A stretch of 64,000 bases of DNA, from contig JAABTQ010000002.1 of the NCBI GenBank assembly GCA_011389745.1, forward strand, positions 124,001-188,000, in the 5' to 3' direction. Below, in pieces: positions 8,463 to 23,726 of the stretch. This stretch comes from Desulfobacteraceae bacterium. Lineage in GTDB: Bacteria; Desulfobacterota; Desulfobacteria; Desulfobacterales; SKZT01. The notes beneath the pieces were generated by a model. The model searched no databases. It had not been told where the DNA came from and saw nothing but the letters and a program-made list of their open reading frames with translations. The translations under genes were made by a program, and so were the position numbers. Position 1 is the stretch's first letter. Every line of letters starts with the position of its first letter.

Positions 8463-9407
8463 ATGGACAATAATGCAACAAAAAAATCTTCGTGTTCAGT
8501 CTGGATGGCTCAGATCAGAGTCAATTTTCTTCTTCTGGCTGTTTTTCTGGTTTTAATAGGCCTGGCAGTATCCTGTAAGCATGCGGTAAGCACCAATACC
8601 GAATTCAATTTTTTTCATGCGGCCTTGATCATGACAGGAGTGGTTCTGGCACATATCTCGGTGAACCTGTTTAACGAGTATTCAGACTATTTTACAAGGA
8701 TAGATTTCAATACGGTTCGCACCCCTTTCAGCGGCGGTACCGGCATGATGGTTTCAGGAAAAACCAGCCCTCGCGCCGTTATTTTTACGGCTGTAATTAC
8801 CCTGGTCGTTGCTTTTGCCATTGGCTGCTATTTTGCCATGGTTTCCCACTGGAGCATTCTGGTGATTTCTCTGACAGGGGCATTGACCATTGTTGGGTAT
8901 ACCCCTTTTTTTCAGCGTATCATGCTGGGGGAGGTTTTTTCAGGTCTCACCCTGGGATCTTTTGTGGTTATCGGCACCTACATCGCCATGACAGCCACCC
9001 CGGACATGGATCTTGGCCGGATATTAACCCCGGGCGTGTTATTGGTCTCGATTCCTCCGGGGATACTGACTTCGTTGCTGCTTCTGATTAATGAATTTCT
9101 CGATACCGAGGCAGACAAACAAGGTGGGCGAAGGCACCTGGTGACCCATTTCGGAAAGCAAAAAGCCGCTTATATATATGCTTTTGGTTTATTTCTCACC
9201 TTTGTGATTATCCTGGCACTTCCATTTCTCGGTATGGCTTCCAAATGGATATTTCTGGCATTGATTCCTCTACCATTGGCATTTAATAACGGTTTTACCG
9301 CAATCAGGCATTATGAAGACAGAACCAGGATTATCAAAGCCATGGGGAAAAATGTATTCATTGTGCTGGGAACTGATCTTCTGATGGCCGTTGGGATTCT
9401 GATTTAG
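8463..9407 (+). CDS. UbiA/MenA-type prenyltransferase
   Basis: 314 residues with about eight to nine membrane helices. The first Asp-rich motif is present as NEYSDYFTRID (about residues 73-83), matching N-D/E-x-x-D-x3-D. The second is NEFLDTEADKQGGRRHLV, matching D-x3-D. These bind the magnesium-diphosphate of a polyprenyl donor. The family joins a prenyl chain to an aromatic acceptor in the inner membrane; the FSGGTGMM segment after motif 1 resembles MenA-like members, so a menaquinone step is plausible but not proven. It stands alone on the plus strand between rplU (divergent) and cdaA (convergent). Confidence 0.85.
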   Translation: MDNNATKKSSCSVWMAQIRVNFLLLAVFLVLIGLAVSCKHAVSTNTEFNFFHAALIMTGVVLAHISVNLFNEYSDYFTRIDFNTVRTPFSGGTGMMVSGKTSPRAVIFTAVITLVVAFAIGCYFAMVSHWSILVISLTGALTIVGYTPFFQRIMLGEVFSGLTLGSFVVIGTYIAMTATPDMDLGRILTPGVLLVSIPPGILTSLLLLINEFLDTEADKQGGRRHLVTHFGKQKAAYIYAFGLFLTFVIILALPFLGMASKWIFLALIPLPLAFNNGFTAIRHYEDRTRIIKAMGKNVFIVLGTDLLMAVGILI

Positions 9408-17826: not shown

Positions 17827-18024
17827 ATGTGTGAAGCAAATGCCTATTTAATTAAGGAAGAAGAACATGAACTTTTCATGGAAGCTGTTGATGTTATCGA
17901 ACCTGAAGAAGATGGCATTAAACTGGTTAGCATTTTTGGAGAACAAAAATTTATAAGAGGACACATTCATTCCTTGTCTTTGATAGACCGCAAGATTTAT
18001 CTGATAGAAACTCCCGACGATTAA
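17827..18024 (+). CDS. cooT: CooT family nickel-binding protein
   Basis: 65 residues. It starts MCEANAYLIKEE and continues with VDVIEPEEDGIKLVSIFGEQ, which fits the small CooT family. In that family the cysteine at position 2 binds Ni(II) in a dimer; CooT delivers nickel to carbon monoxide dehydrogenase in Rhodospirillum. A ribosome binding site (AAGGAT) is just upstream. No CODH gene is in the window; anaerobes of this group often have CODH/acetyl-CoA synthase elsewhere. It precedes the IspH-UbiA gene by 18 bp on the same strand. Confidence 0.85.
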   Translation: MCEANAYLIKEEEHELFMEAVDVIEPEEDGIKLVSIFGEQKFIRGHIHSLSLIDRKIYLIETPDD

Positions 18025-18042: not shown

Positions 18043-19776
18043 ATGAAAATAATAATCGCAAAAACCGCTGGTTTCTGCATGGGTGTCAGACGCGCCGTGG
18101 AGATGGTGCTTGATGCTTCCAGGAAAAACAATGGTCCTATCTATACCTTTGGCCCTCTGATTCATAACCCTCAGGTTTTGAATATTCTTGAGGAAAAAGA
18201 AATTCACATTCTCGGCAAAATTCCGAAAAAGGGTTCTGGAACGGTTCTGATAAGAGCCCACGGTATTCCCCCTGACAAGAGTGAACAGCTCAGAAATGCA
18301 GGGTTTAATGTTATCGATGCCACTTGTCCCCGGGTTATCAAGGTTCAGACCATCATAAAAAACCACGCAAATAAAGGATATGCCTCTATTATTGTAGGGG
18401 ATCGGGACCATGCGGAAGTCATTGGACTGTTGGGGTATGCCGGTGAAAAAAAGATTGTTATCGGCAGCATGGAACAGCTTGATAAAATTCCGGCATTTGA
18501 AAAAGCCATCATTGTCGCTCAAACCACACAGAACACCCAATTTTTCGAAGAAGTAAAAACCTGGATCCGGACACATCGCCCTGGCTATCAAATATTCGAT
18601 ACTATTTGCGGTTCCACGGAAAAAAGACAATATGAAGTCAAAGGATTGTCCCAAATAGTGGACGCTGTTATTGTTGTTGGTGGTTATACCAGCGGAAACA
18701 CACAGCGTCTTTATGAAATTGCTCAAAAATCAGGAAAACCGTCATTTTATGTTGAAAACGAATCCCAGCTTGATTTGTCATCACTATACCAAGCCAAATC
18801 CATCGGAATCACAGCCGGGGCTTCAACACCTAACTGGGTGATTCGAAGGGTTTACCGATCCTTAGAAACAATACCTTTTCAAAAGGGAAAAACGTTTAGG
18901 AAGTTTTTTTTTTCAACCCTGACCATTCTTCTTTTTTCTAACATATACCTATCTCTGGGAGCGCTATGTCTTTGTTATGCCTGCACCAGACTTCAAGGAA
19001 TAGACCATTTTTTGCCTTATGGCCTGATCGCTTATTTTTATGTGCAATCCATGCACATTTTTAACAATCTAACCGGGCGTCGGGCAAATCGATACAATGA
19101 TCCTGATAAAGCCCTTTTTTATGATAAAAACAAACAACTCCTGGCCGTTTTGGCGCTACTTTCCGGAATTGCAGGCATTTTTACGGCCATGATGTCGGGC
19201 CTCACCATTTTTTTGCTTTTTTTGCTCATGAGTTTGATTGGGCTGCTTTACAATATGAGGATCATCCCCCGGGATTTTATGGGAATAAAATCTGGGCGAA
19301 TAAAAGATATTCCGGCATCCAAGACGATCTTAATTGCCTTGGCCTGGGCGATGGTTACGGCCCTTTTTGCTCCCCTTTCAGTTTATGGTTATATAACGGT
19401 ATCATCTATTTTTGTCTTTTTATGGTCTGCAGGTTTGGTTTTTGTCCGTACGGCATTCTTTGATATTGTTGACATGCACGGAGACCGCATGGTCGGAAGA
19501 GAAACACTTCCGATTGTCCTGGGTAAAAAGCATACCATGTTAATTTTAAAAAGCACATTGGGAATACTTGCCACGACTGGTATCTTTGCAAGCCTATTTC
19601 AGTTGACCACAAATCTTGGCTATGCACTTGCGATTTTTCCGGTATTTTTTTTCATGCTGCTTATGTTATATGAAAAAGGGTATCTTATGCCCGGTCTACG
19701 CTTGGAATTTCTCGCAGAAACAAATTTTATAATAGCCGGAATGATCGCGGGGATTTGGGTCATTGCAAATGTTTAG
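18043..19776 (+). CDS. ispH: IspH (HMBPP reductase) fused to a UbiA-like prenyltransferase domain
   Basis: 577 residues, about twice the normal IspH length. Residues 1-280 are IspH with the three iron-sulfur cysteines in GFCMGVRRAV (Cys12), DATCPRV (about Cys96) and DTICGST (about Cys195), and the IRAHG, TTQNT and TAGAST motifs. This part makes IPP and DMAPP from HMBPP. Residues 285-577 are a UbiA-type membrane domain with seven or more helices; its second Asp motif FDIVDMHGDRMVGRETLP is intact, but the first motif reads NNLTGRRANRYND without the usual aspartates. There is no stop or frameshift between the parts. Fusing isoprenoid precursor supply to a prenyltransferase-like domain is unusual. 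The start ATG is 18 bp after cooT. Confidence 0.92.
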   Translation: MKIIIAKTAGFCMGVRRAVEMVLDASRKNNGPIYTFGPLIHNPQVLNILEEKEIHILGKIPKKGSGTVLIRAHGIPPDKSEQLRNAGFNVIDATCPRVIKVQTIIKNHANKGYASIIVGDRDHAEVIGLLGYAGEKKIVIGSMEQLDKIPAFEKAIIVAQTTQNTQFFEEVKTWIRTHRPGYQIFDTICGSTEKRQYEVKGLSQIVDAVIVVGGYTSGNTQRLYEIAQKSGKPSFYVENESQLDLSSLYQAKSIGITAGASTPNWVIRRVYRSLETIPFQKGKTFRKFFFSTLTILLFSNIYLSLGALCLCYACTRLQGIDHFLPYGLIAYFYVQSMHIFNNLTGRRANRYNDPDKALFYDKNKQLLAVLALLSGIAGIFTAMMSGLTIFLLFLLMSLIGLLYNMRIIPRDFMGIKSGRIKDIPASKTILIALAWAMVTALFAPLSVYGYITVSSIFVFLWSAGLVFVRTAFFDIVDMHGDRMVGRETLPIVLGKKHTMLILKSTLGILATTGIFASLFQLTTNLGYALAIFPVFFFMLLMLYEKGYLMPGLRLEFLAETNFIIAGMIAGIWVIANV

Positions 19777-19844: not shown

Positions 19845-20324
19845 ATGGAAATTATGGTTCTTTACTATTCCAAAGGAGGTAATACCCGAAAGCTCGCAGA
19901 GGCCATTGCCGAAGGTGTTGAGATGGTGGATGAAATGACTGCGAATTTAAAACGTACTGATGAAGTCAGCAAGGAAGACTTTGTTTCCTGCAAGGGTCTT
20001 ATTGCGGGTTCCCCGGTATATTTTGGGACTATGGCAGCCCAGTTGAAACAAATATTTGATGATTTCGTGAGTGTAAGGAAAAAGATGGAAGGCAAGGTCG
20101 GGGCGGCTTTTACCACCAGTGGCGACCCGACCGGTGGCAAGGAAACCACCATGATGTCTATTATCCAGGCACTGATGATATACGGTATGGTCATCGTGGG
20201 AGATCCCATGTCTGCCACCGGCCATTATGGAGTTGGTTGTGTCGGCGCTCCCGAAATTCAATACCAGGAAAATGGACGCAAATTGGGTCGACGAGTAGCC
20301 GAACTGGCTAAGAAAATCAGTTAA
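19845..20324 (+). CDS. Flavodoxin/WrbA-like flavoprotein
   Basis: 159 residues. The N-terminus MVLYYSKGGNTRKLAEAIAEG is an FMN phosphate-binding loop of the flavodoxin fold, followed by LIAGSPVYFGTMAAQLKQIF and TTSGDPTGGKE, which resemble WrbA/NAD(P)H quinone oxidoreductase members. It likely carries FMN and shuttles electrons in the cytoplasm. A GGAGGAG-type site (AATGGAGGAG) lies ahead of the ATG. It could serve IspH, which needs reduced flavodoxin or ferredoxin; that link rests only on position, 68 bp downstream of the IspH-UbiA gene. Confidence 0.82.
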   Translation: MEIMVLYYSKGGNTRKLAEAIAEGVEMVDEMTANLKRTDEVSKEDFVSCKGLIAGSPVYFGTMAAQLKQIFDDFVSVRKKMEGKVGAAFTTSGDPTGGKETTMMSIIQALMIYGMVIVGDPMSATGHYGVGCVGAPEIQYQENGRKLGRRVAELAKKIS

Positions 20325-20351: not shown

Positions 20352-21485
20352 CTAAGCTCTTAGCATTTGAGGCAAATAACTGCAGAGGGGCTCCTCCGCC
20401 ATGTAGTCCCCGGTAGCTTCATAAGCTCTGGCACGGCAGCCCCCACACACTTTTTTATATTCGCAGGCACCACATTTGCCTTTCAACTCATTAAAATTTC
20501 GTAACTGTTGAAAAACCTTGGAGTTTTTCCAAATTTTCGCAAAGGATTCCCTGGTGACATCTCCGCAATTGACATCAAGAAATCCGCAAGGCTGAACAAT
20601 TCCCCGATGTGAGATGAAACAAAATCCGGTCCCCCCCAGACAACCACGAGTCACGGCATCCAGACCGTGGGTTTGAAAGGTTACGGTCTTGCCGTCTTCT
20701 TTGGCCCTTTGTCGAAGAATTCGGTAATAATGAGGAGCGCAAGTGGCTTTAAGTTGAAGAGGTGTTTTTTCTTTTTGATCGTAAAACCAGTTGAGGCTTT
20801 CTTCGTATTCTGTTGAAGTAATTTCCTGATCCACTATGTATTTACCCCGGCCGGTAGGAACCAGAAGAAAAATATGGTGGGCTACAGCGCCCAGATCAAC
20901 GGCCAGTTGCTGAATGGCGGGAATTTGATCCAGGTTTGTTTTGGTAATGGTGGTGTTGATTTGAAACTCAATACCTGCATTTTTGGCATGTCGTATTCCA
21001 CTCAAGGCACCATCGAATGCCCCCTTTACCCCTCTGAATTTGTCATGACTATCTTTTGAAGCACCGTCCAAACTGATGCTGATTCTTTTAATACCTGAGT
21101 CAACCAGCCTCTCGGCAATTTTTTCTGTTATAAGGGTACCGTTTGGAGCCATGACCATTCGAAGGTTTTTTTTGGTGCCGTATTTGGCAATTTCAAAAAT
21201 ATCCCGGCGAAGCAAAGGCTCTCCACCAGTCAAAATGACAATAGGTTCGCCCAACTCAGCTATTTGATCCAGGAGGTCAAATCCGGTTTTGGTGTCAAGT
21301 TCTCCTGTGTAGGGACCTTTAGTGGCTGCAGCACGACAATGAACACATTCGAGATTGCAGTTGCGGGTTATTTCCCAGGCAACCAGCCGTAATTTGCTAT
21401 CATTTGAGTCAGAAGACTTTGACTTTTGAATATGATTCGAATGATTTTTCAAAGGGTTGAACTCTTCAGATTTATTGGGTTTCAT
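20352..21485 (-). CDS. ahbD: Radical SAM heme synthase AhbD
   Basis: 377 residues. The radical SAM cluster motif is CNLECVHC (Cys43, 47, 50), with GGEPL and the SISLDGAS segment. A C-terminal cysteine-rich region (CGFLDVNCGD, CGACEYKKVCGGCRAR) should bind a second 4Fe-4S cluster, as in the twitch/SPASM type. AhbD decarboxylates Fe-coproporphyrin III to heme b in the siroheme-dependent pathway of sulfate reducers and archaea. Assignment rests on these motifs and on the neighbours hemB and ahbC in the same operon. The gap to hemB is about 70 bp. Confidence 0.85.
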   Translation of the reverse strand: MKPNKSEEFNPLKNHSNHIQKSKSSDSNDSKLRLVAWEITRNCNLECVHCRAAATKGPYTGELDTKTGFDLLDQIAELGEPIVILTGGEPLLRRDIFEIAKYGTKKNLRMVMAPNGTLITEKIAERLVDSGIKRISISLDGASKDSHDKFRGVKGAFDGALSGIRHAKNAGIEFQINTTITKTNLDQIPAIQQLAVDLGAVAHHIFLLVPTGRGKYIVDQEITSTEYEESLNWFYDQKEKTPLQLKATCAPHYYRILRQRAKEDGKTVTFQTHGLDAVTRGCLGGTGFCFISHRGIVQPCGFLDVNCGDVTRESFAKIWKNSKVFQQLRNFNELKGKCGACEYKKVCGGCRARAYEATGDYMAEEPLCSYLPQMLRA

Positions 21486-21554
21486 GATTTAAATCGTTTC
21501 ACTTTTAAATTTTTGCTCCTTAGTACGATATATAACATTGAGTCGGAAAACTTT

Positions 21555-22535
21555 TTAACGCCGCCCATTTAATATCTCAGCAGCTTCCATGGCAAAATAG
21601 GTAAGAATGATATCTGCTCCGGCCCGCTTGATGCTGGTAAGGGTCTCCATCATGACTTTTTTGCCGTCTATCCATCCCATTTGGTCTGCGGCCTTGATCA
21701 TGGCAAATTCTCCACTCACATTGTAAGCCGCTACCGGCAGGTCAATTTCCTGACTCACACGAAAGATAATGTCCAGATATGGAAGTGCCGGTTTAACCAT
21801 AATGATGTCGGCTCCCTCTTCCACATCCATGGTTGCTTCTCTTATCGCTTCGTTGCTGTTTGCCGGATCCATCTGATATGTTCTTCGGTCTCCAAACTGG
21901 GGGGCTGAATGTGCAGCAGCACGAAACGGGCCGTAATATGAAGAACAATATTTTGCAGCATATGACATAATGGGGATATGACTATAGCCATTGTCATCAA
22001 GAATACCCCGGATTTCGGCCACCCGGCCATCCATCATATCCGATGGGGCAACCATATCCGCACCGGATTTGGCGTGGGTAAGCGCAGTTCCGGCCAAAAG
22101 ATCCAATGTGGAATCATTGTCGACAGATTTGCCTTCAACAATACCGCAGTGACCATGATCCATGTATTGACAAAGGCATACATCGGTTATGACCAACAAA
22201 TCCGGAATTCTGTCTTTTAACGCTTTTGTGGCCTTTTGCACAATCCCATCTTTGGCATAGGCACTGGTAGCCAAAGCATCTTTTTTGTCAGGAATACCAA
22301 AAAGCATCACAGCCGGAATTCCCAGGTCATAGGCTGTTTTTGCTGTTTTGATCAGATAATCTATCGAAAGTTGGAAATGGCCAGGCATGGAATCAATGGG
22401 GTTTTTGACATTTTTTCCGCCGATGGCAAATAGCGGAAGAATAAAATCATCAACGGAAAGAACCGTCTCCCGTATCATTCTTCGGAATGCCTCATTTTGT
22501 CGCAATCTTCTTGGACGGTAATCAGGAAACAGCAT
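21555..22535 (-). CDS. hemB: Delta-aminolevulinic acid dehydratase (porphobilinogen synthase)
   Basis: 326 residues. The zinc-site cysteines are present at 120, 122 and 130 (TDVCLCQYMDHGHCG), so it is the zinc-dependent type. Active-site lysines are in YAAKYCSSYYGPFR and IIMVKPALPYLD. It joins two 5-aminolevulinate molecules into porphobilinogen, the common tetrapyrrole precursor. It sits between ahbC (12 bp upstream) and ahbD, so early and late heme genes are in one unit. Confidence 0.97.
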   Translation of the reverse strand: MLFPDYRPRRLRQNEAFRRMIRETVLSVDDFILPLFAIGGKNVKNPIDSMPGHFQLSIDYLIKTAKTAYDLGIPAVMLFGIPDKKDALATSAYAKDGIVQKATKALKDRIPDLLVITDVCLCQYMDHGHCGIVEGKSVDNDSTLDLLAGTALTHAKSGADMVAPSDMMDGRVAEIRGILDDNGYSHIPIMSYAAKYCSSYYGPFRAAAHSAPQFGDRRTYQMDPANSNEAIREATMDVEEGADIIMVKPALPYLDIIFRVSQEIDLPVAAYNVSGEFAMIKAADQMGWIDGKKVMMETLTSIKRAGADIILTYFAMEAAEILNGRR

Positions 22536-22547
22536 CAGTGGGCTCCT

Positions 22548-23726
22548 TTATGAGATTTCTTCATCGGTTAAATAGCAGGCTGGGTCTGGTGCCCAGATAT
22601 CGCCATATAACGCTTCAGCTCGAACCCGAAAATTTCCGCCGCAAACGTCAAGCCATTTGCAACTGGCGCATCTGTCCTTGACATAAAGCTTCTTTTCCTT
22701 CAATTTTCCAAGAAGTGGTTCGGAAACATCCGTCCAAATGTCGGAAAATGGCCTGTTTCTGACATTGCCAAAACTGTAATGGCGCCAGAACTGATCTGCG
22801 TAAACTTCACCATCCCAACTTACACATCCTATTCCACGTCCGGAACTGTTTCCTTCATTCATTTTCAGAAGTTCAAGCACCTTCTTTGCCTGCTCCGGAT
22901 CTTCCCGCAACAATCTTATATACAGGTATGGTCCGTCAGCGTGATTATCAACTGTCAGTACCTCCTTTGCTTTTCCCTGATCATGAAGAAGCTTAGTACG
23001 ATCCATAATCAGGTCAACCGCCTTTCGTGTTTCAGCATGACTGAGATCGTCTTTTACCAGATTGGAACCTCTTCCGGCATAAACCAAGTGGTAGAAACAA
23101 ACCCTGGGTATATCCATTTCTTCAAGCATATCAAAAATGCTGGGGATCTCGTCTACATTAAATTTGTTTATCGTGAACCGAAGACCAACTTTTATGCCTG
23201 CGTCCTGACAGTTTCTAATTCCATTGACAGCCGACTTAAATGCATTTTTGACCCCCCTGAAACGGTCGTTGATTTCTTCCATGCCATCTATGCTTATTCC
23301 CACATATGACAGACCGATTTCTTTCAGAATACGCGCCATATTGGGTGTGATCATTGTTCCATTTGTGGAAATAACCGCACGCATGCCTTTTTGAACGGCG
23401 TATTCAGCCAATTCAGGAAGATCTTTTCGAACTAAAGGTTCTCCACCTGAAAACAAGACCACTGGAACTTTGAATTCGGACAGATCATCTAATAGCTTTT
23501 TACCCTCCTGGGTGCTTAATTCATTTTCAAAAGAAACGTCCTTGGCCTGGGCATAACAATGAACACATCTTAAGTTACATCGCCGGGTGACATTCCAAAC
23601 CACGACCGGCTTTTTATCAATAGAAAACTGTAGCAAATGCGACGGAAGCCTTGAGGAGTGGCGACCATAACGAAGTGCATCAGAAGGCTCAACTGCTCCG
23701 CAATAAAGTTTTGATATTCCAATCAT
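22548..23726 (-). CDS. ahbC: Radical SAM 12,18-didecarboxysiroheme deacetylase AhbC
   Basis: 392 residues. It begins MIGISKLYCGAVEPSDALRY, a start I associate with AhbC proteins, and has the radical SAM motif CNLRCVHC (Cys50, 54, 57), a GGEPL motif and a C-terminal CASCKWLDVCGGNFR cluster region. AhbC removes the two acetate side chains of didecarboxysiroheme to form Fe-coproporphyrin III, the AhbD substrate. It is 12 bp before hemB and 15 bp after the ClpX-like gene. ahbA and ahbB are not in the window. The two radical SAM proteins are related to each other, so their order of assignment depends on the N-terminal signature. Confidence 0.86.
   Translation of the reverse strand: MIGISKLYCGAVEPSDALRYGRHSSRLPSHLLQFSIDKKPVVVWNVTRRCNLRCVHCYAQAKDVSFENELSTQEGKKLLDDLSEFKVPVVLFSGGEPLVRKDLPELAEYAVQKGMRAVISTNGTMITPNMARILKEIGLSYVGISIDGMEEINDRFRGVKNAFKSAVNGIRNCQDAGIKVGLRFTINKFNVDEIPSIFDMLEEMDIPRVCFYHLVYAGRGSNLVKDDLSHAETRKAVDLIMDRTKLLHDQGKAKEVLTVDNHADGPYLYIRLLREDPEQAKKVLELLKMNEGNSSGRGIGCVSWDGEVYADQFWRHYSFGNVRNRPFSDIWTDVSEPLLGKLKEKKLYVKDRCASCKWLDVCGGNFRVRAEALYGDIWAPDPACYLTDEEIS

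Follow-up and report, generated by a model that had tools for sequence, protein, structure and literature searches.

IspH, the final enzyme of the MEP pathway, is normally a soluble protein. In Clostridia and Fusobacteria it occurs fused to ribosomal protein S1 (IspH-RPS1), a fusion that, like the one analyzed here, has been retained over long evolutionary time, although the partner considered here is a membrane domain. The closest described system is the IspH-UbiA family of Rao et al. (2015, Chem Sci, PMC4746011), who described 47 such proteins, mainly from Desulfobacterales, placed all of them in sulfate reducers, and assigned the second domain to PT_UbiA_5 (function unknown), with two DXXXD repeats said to be present. 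These authors proposed either membrane localization or supply to a prenyltransferase (the “Rosetta stone” reading); their attempts to express an active full-length fusion failed. In later literature, the only mention of the fusion that we found was within a reference list; an eLife paper on the lipocone does not deal with it.

In the archaeal prenyltransferase AfUbiA, Mg2+ is held by N68 and D72 of motif 1 and by D198 and D202 of motif 2 (PMC4106721). The substitutions N68A, D72A, R22A, and K146A abolish binding of GPP, D198A and D202A weaken it, and mutants of MenA altered at the equivalents of N68, D72, D198, D202, and Y139 lose function (PMC4106721).

The predicted protein examined here is an orthologue of the published fusion in its ordinary Desulfobacterales form, sharing domain order, bacterial order, and length with the proteins of Rao et al. 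Since the fusion had been published together with both of the roles that the sequence-only reading of this DNA suggested (membrane localization and a nearby prenyltransferase), the novelty of the find had been overestimated in that reading; what is new is the loss of the D72 and D76 equivalents and the lineage pattern of that loss.

The fusion and its two halves

The window, i.e., the whole 64,000-nucleotide stretch of Desulfobacteraceae DNA that was analyzed, carries the fusion as a single frame that starts with ATG and stays open for 577 codons without an internal stop (Table 1). Both Pfam domains score above their cut-offs, LYTB over residues 3 to 274 (PF02401; E value, 2.1e-89; 299.8 bits versus 24.5) and UbiA over residues 310 to 543 (PF01040; 51.3 bits versus 34.2), so that a full IspH does run unbroken into a UbiA domain, as had been read from the letters. 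Past the end of IspH, the first ATG is that of M337; since it lies inside helix 2, we saw no sign that the UbiA part is translated separately.

Table 1. Features of the fusion locus, by position in the window
Feature	Position	Strand	Remarks
CooT-family gene	17827..18024	+	Directly upstream of the fusion; conserved neighbor in Desulfobacterales
IspH-UbiA fusion ORF	18043..19776	+	577 aa, stop codon included; the genome's only IspH
IspH (LytB) domain	18043..18873	+	Residues 1-277
UbiA-like membrane domain	18892..19770	+	Residues 284-576; nine helices
Degenerate motif 1, NNLTGRRANRYND	19063..19101	+	Residues 341-353; N341 kept; D72 equivalent is G345, D76 equivalent is N349
Motif 2, D474-IV-D477-MHG-D481	19462..19485	+	D198 and D202 equivalents kept
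Flavodoxin-like gene	19845..20324	+	Directly downstream of the fusion; in the window genome and L001 only; named by sequence reading

That an assembly or sequencing artefact joined two genes is vanishingly improbable. We found no evidence in favor of such a join, and the same architecture recurs in the nearest relative (L001, at 73% identity) and in independent genomes numbering well over 100, which excludes a sequencing error and led us to reject split genes. Nor are the two parts always separate in homologues. When the search across Desulfobacterota that had been proposed was run on 395 genomes sampled from the phylum, IspH was matched in 377 of them, and at least 147 of the 395 carried a fusion (the match reaching the UbiA part, or a frame of fusion length). 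A UbiA-domain profile gave fusion-length matches in a further 32 of 120 genomes of a Fibrobacterota sample, an example being Chitinispirillaceae record L031; because of these, the placement of all fusions in sulfate reducers seems too narrow. Many members of one phylum and some of a second have IspH tied to the membrane by a UbiA fold. In one fusion (L011:6001-7974) the frame extends to 658 aa with an unrelated C-terminal tail, probably through a frameshift or an assembly join.

The IspH half matches TIGR00216 at 286 bits (cut-off, 187.85), and residues C12, C95, C189, H41, H73, H123, E125, T161, S217, and N219 are invariant in 24 fusions. By comparison with E. coli IspH, we take the three cysteines to be those of the [4Fe-4S] cluster and H41, H73, H123, and E125 to belong to the active site. 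In an AlphaFold model of the fusion (pLDDT, 85.8), residues 1 to 278 match E. coli IspH (3f7t) with a Z score of 32.5 and an rmsd of 1.7 over 278 aligned residues. Compared with IspH/LytB proteins (PF02401 and TIGR00216), the window protein thus shares the full-length domain, all cluster cysteines, and the active-site residues but carries an extra C-terminal membrane domain. As the single IspH copy in the genome, with these residues intact, this half would be the cell's sole HMBPP reductase and presumably must be working.

The C-terminal half is well supported as an integral membrane domain of the UbiA fold with nine helices. PF01040 was matched by all 40 family members checked, and residues 291 to 577 of the model match the archaeal UbiA structures 4od4 (Z, 19.4) and 4tq3 (Z, 18.8) over 256 to 265 aligned residues. 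Searched alone with phmmer against PDB sequences, this half gave no match, and a profile was needed to reach AfUbiA. Its least variable columns include H338, N341, Y403, K/R427, W435, R469, D481, G485, T488, and G494 as well as motif 2. The UbiA half is under purifying selection yet evolving faster than IspH (pairwise dN/dS of 0.10 to 0.29 versus 0.06 to 0.22). For the pair formed by the window protein and L001, the values are 0.148 and 0.058, respectively, which are rough because dS is saturated.

Loss of motif 1 ligands across lineages

The sequence-only reading had reported an intact motif 2 and an altered motif 1, and both observations were correct. Motif 1 of the window protein reads N341-NLT-G345-RRA-N349-RYN-D353, so that the catalytic pattern N-x3-D-x3-D is broken at G345 and N349; the DxxxD of motif 2 is present at D477 and D481. 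That reading had measured motif 1 against a form with a further Asp at position 2. The absence of Asp from positions 5 and 9 stands, but an Asp at position 2 is not needed by canonical UbiAs, as seen in AfUbiA (NALYDRDVD) and in the MqnP-like UbiA of the same genome (NRVIDASID).

In the motif 1 alignment, which the earlier reading had also proposed, the AfUbiA segment NALYDRDVDRLHD, taken from an HMM alignment, was paired by us without gaps with NNLTGRRANRYND. At the ~13 to 17% sequence identity to solved UbiAs on which these equivalences rest, N341 corresponds to N68, G345 to D72, N349 to D76, Y403 to Y139, K421 to the diphosphate-binding K146, D477 to D198, and D481 to D202; at R22, the other basic residue that binds diphosphate, the alignment is too uncertain to use. 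The domain thus shares with AfUbiA (4tq3) and ApUbiA (4od4) the fold and the equivalents of N68, Y139, K146, D198, and D202 but has Gly and Asn in place of D72 and D76 and is fused to IspH. We also considered whether motif 1 has shifted by one helical turn, with residues 349 and 353 as the working pair. This is unlikely because the gapless alignment of NALYDRDVDRLHD with NNLTGRRADRYND matches N68, R77, and D80.

The loss of motif 1 residues appears across whole lineages and is not a local accident. Counted in a nonrandom, best-match-first sample, with clade names taken from named records and kinship labels, Gly occupies the D72 site in 39 of the 43 fusions from Desulfobacterales, and 40 of the 43 have Asp at the D76 site. 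In all 31 fusions from Fibrobacterota, the D72 site holds Ser, Asn, Cys, or Val and the D76-site Asp is missing as well; in other Desulfobacterota the D72 site is Asp in 74 of 96 fusions and the D76 site is mostly Ser, Ala, or Gly, with Asp lost in nearly all. Both motif 1 aspartates are found in only 4 of 140 fusions, and all four AfUbiA Mg ligands are kept in 35 of the 140. The closest unfused relatives that we found, standalone Fibrobacterota UbiAs (e.g., L185 to L197), share the Tyr, Lys, Trp, and motif 2 with the window domain but, unlike it, retain both D72 and D76 (13 of 13). As judged from these alignments, crippling of the canonical diphosphate site extends throughout Desulfobacterales. 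The nearest relative, L001, still has Asp at the D76 site; the window protein is more reduced than its neighbors, since N349 removes this equivalent too.

These counts bear on the two DXXXD motifs reported by Rao et al. In most Desulfobacterales fusions, the DXXXD of motif 1 is out of register, formed by residues 349 and 353 (ADRYND; 40 of 140 fusions) and lying four residues off the AfUbiA register, and in the window protein N349 abolishes even this, leaving motif 2 only. It is this statement, not the family itself, that looks in need of correction.

Decay, loss, and possible roles of the UbiA half

In the f41 and f37 families, IspH leads into a hydrophobic domain whose helices remain but whose motif 1, like much of its first half, can no longer be recognized; these strongly diverged fusions are L206 to L209 (f41; genomes G030, G066, G126, and G152) and L222 (f37; G026). 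Because f41 splits off from the main fusion clade in the IspH tree, its fusion may be of independent or very ancient origin. The main fusion group of that tree comprises 60 rows with support of 97/91, the bootstrap being not fully settled, and nested inside it are solo IspH proteins, among them L140, L217, L218, and L219. One of them, L140 (G203, from the same bacterial order), has the same gene order and a stop codon right after IspH, at the old domain boundary; this is a clean loss of the UbiA half. No separate UbiA_5-like gene was found in 80 IspH-only genomes, which gave just weak matches at the level of canonical UbiAs and matches to f41 proteins that are themselves diverged fusions. The genomes of the solo-IspH lineages likewise yielded none; this absence is not proof, because the f37 domain, which is strongly diverged, goes undetected by that profile as well. 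The simplest reading of these sequences would be that the UbiA half was lost several times and IspH was kept. Together, the active-looking, half-decayed, fully decayed, and domain-less forms make a natural series for testing the role of the membrane domain.

The sequence-only reading had offered two ideas, that the UbiA domain uses another substrate or that it anchors IspH to the membrane. What we found, a membrane domain with a crippled canonical site, supports that reading in part. We lean, on balance, toward a catalytically decayed domain that tethers IspH to the membrane and probably still binds a ligand. By alignment, the UbiA half has lost the Mg2+/diphosphate ligand D72, and here also D76; because AfUbiA and MenA mutants at equivalent sites fail, canonical Mg2+-dependent prenyl transfer has most likely been given up. 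The domain would then be kept to place IspH at the cytoplasmic face of the membrane, beside the users of IPP and DMAPP. The weakest step of this proposal, suggested by conservation, is that the residual pocket (N341, Y403, K421, K427, W435, R469, D477, and D481) probably binds an isoprenoid or phosphate ligand. The single IspH, the three other UbiA-family genes of the genome, the clade-by-clade losses in motif 1, the retention of D72 and D76 in standalone relatives, the nested solo IspH proteins, and the dN/dS of the domain all favor this proposal; against it, motif 2, Y403, W435, K427, R469, G485, and T488 are nearly invariant, more so than a plain anchor needs. That same conservation of polar, nonstructural residues (D477, D481, K427, R469, H338, and N341 are nearly fixed across a very diverse set) makes it distinctly improbable that the domain is a pure, ligand-free scaffold in which conserved residues merely hold the fold, even though progressive decay, strongest in f41 and f37, and repeated domain loss speak for such a scaffold.

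Doubtful, too, is the view, already put forward by Rao et al. (PMC4746011), that the UbiA half is an active prenyltransferase with a noncanonical site, in which motif 2, N341, K421, and K427 would hold the diphosphate and IspH would feed it locally by “Rosetta stone” channeling. Motif 2 and the pocket residues are nearly invariant, IspA and DXS are neighbors in one clade, and about a quarter of the fusions keep all four Mg ligands, so that some members of the family may act as enzymes. Substitutions near motif 1 need not be fatal either, given that the UBIAD1 variants D112A and D112G are still active on some substrates (PMC4398444), D112 being set beside motif 1 by region only. However, D72 is lost in Desulfobacterales and Fibrobacterota fusions and D76 nearly everywhere else, D72A kills both GPP binding by AfUbiA and MenA function (PMC4106721), the domain has been dropped in several lineages with no relative detected elsewhere in those genomes, and local supply would first require elongation of IPP and DMAPP by IspA. 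Because the catalytic motif erodes lineage by lineage, a pairing of two consecutive active enzymes is doubtful for much of the family. A longer shot, overlapping with the preferred tethering reading, is that the UbiA half acts as a built-in isoprenoid sensor, which would bind a prenyl diphosphate or another isoprenoid without transferring it and adjust the fused IspH. Human UBIAD1 is a sensor of GGPP and a regulator of HMG-CoA reductase, which belongs to the other isoprenoid pathway (PMC9314443), and a bacterial sensor of this kind, if real, would be a single-chain parallel to UBIAD1-HMGCR.

Genomic surroundings

The neighbors of the fusion vary by clade, and we found no strong linkage to one partner gene. 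The conserved order in Desulfobacterales is M48 protease, ParA, ParB, NYN protein, CooT, and the fusion; in other clades the fusion follows IspA-DXS-TlyA, has Dus on one side and a GT2 glycosyltransferase on the other, or adjoins other genes. The context is a housekeeping one that includes isoprenoid genes and names no acceptor for prenyl transfer. E. coli IspH is known to accept electrons from flavodoxin, the class to which the downstream gene is likened.

The window genome has four UbiA-family genes, the fusion included. In the remaining three, N-x3-D or a close variant is preserved; by score, one is MqnP-like, one MenA-like, and one generic UbiA-like, all under the curated equivalog cut-offs except for the generic TIGR01475 in the case of the MqnP-like gene. 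Since these three, among them the MqnP-like and MenA-like ones, keep the motif 1 aspartates, quinone prenylation is independent of the fusion domain. The MenA-like gene (NEYSDYFTRID) lies at window positions 8463 to 9407, ~9 kb upstream of the fusion, and the MqnP-like one adjoins a UbiD-like gene (L036).

A GT2 glycosyltransferase gene lies directly or a few hundred bases after the fusion in ~26 loci (including L056, L061, L074, L081, L082, L086, and L095); in many of these, a tRNA-dihydrouridine synthase gene precedes the fusion. One clade (L060, L063, L070, L071, L077, L089, L093, and L097) has genes upstream that we named, by sequence reading, as those of an HpnG-like hopanoid-type nucleosidase and a CruF-like carotenoid protein. 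In the window, positions 20352 to 23726 on the minus strand hold two radical SAM genes flanking HemB, which looks like a cluster for alternative (siroheme-type) heme synthesis.
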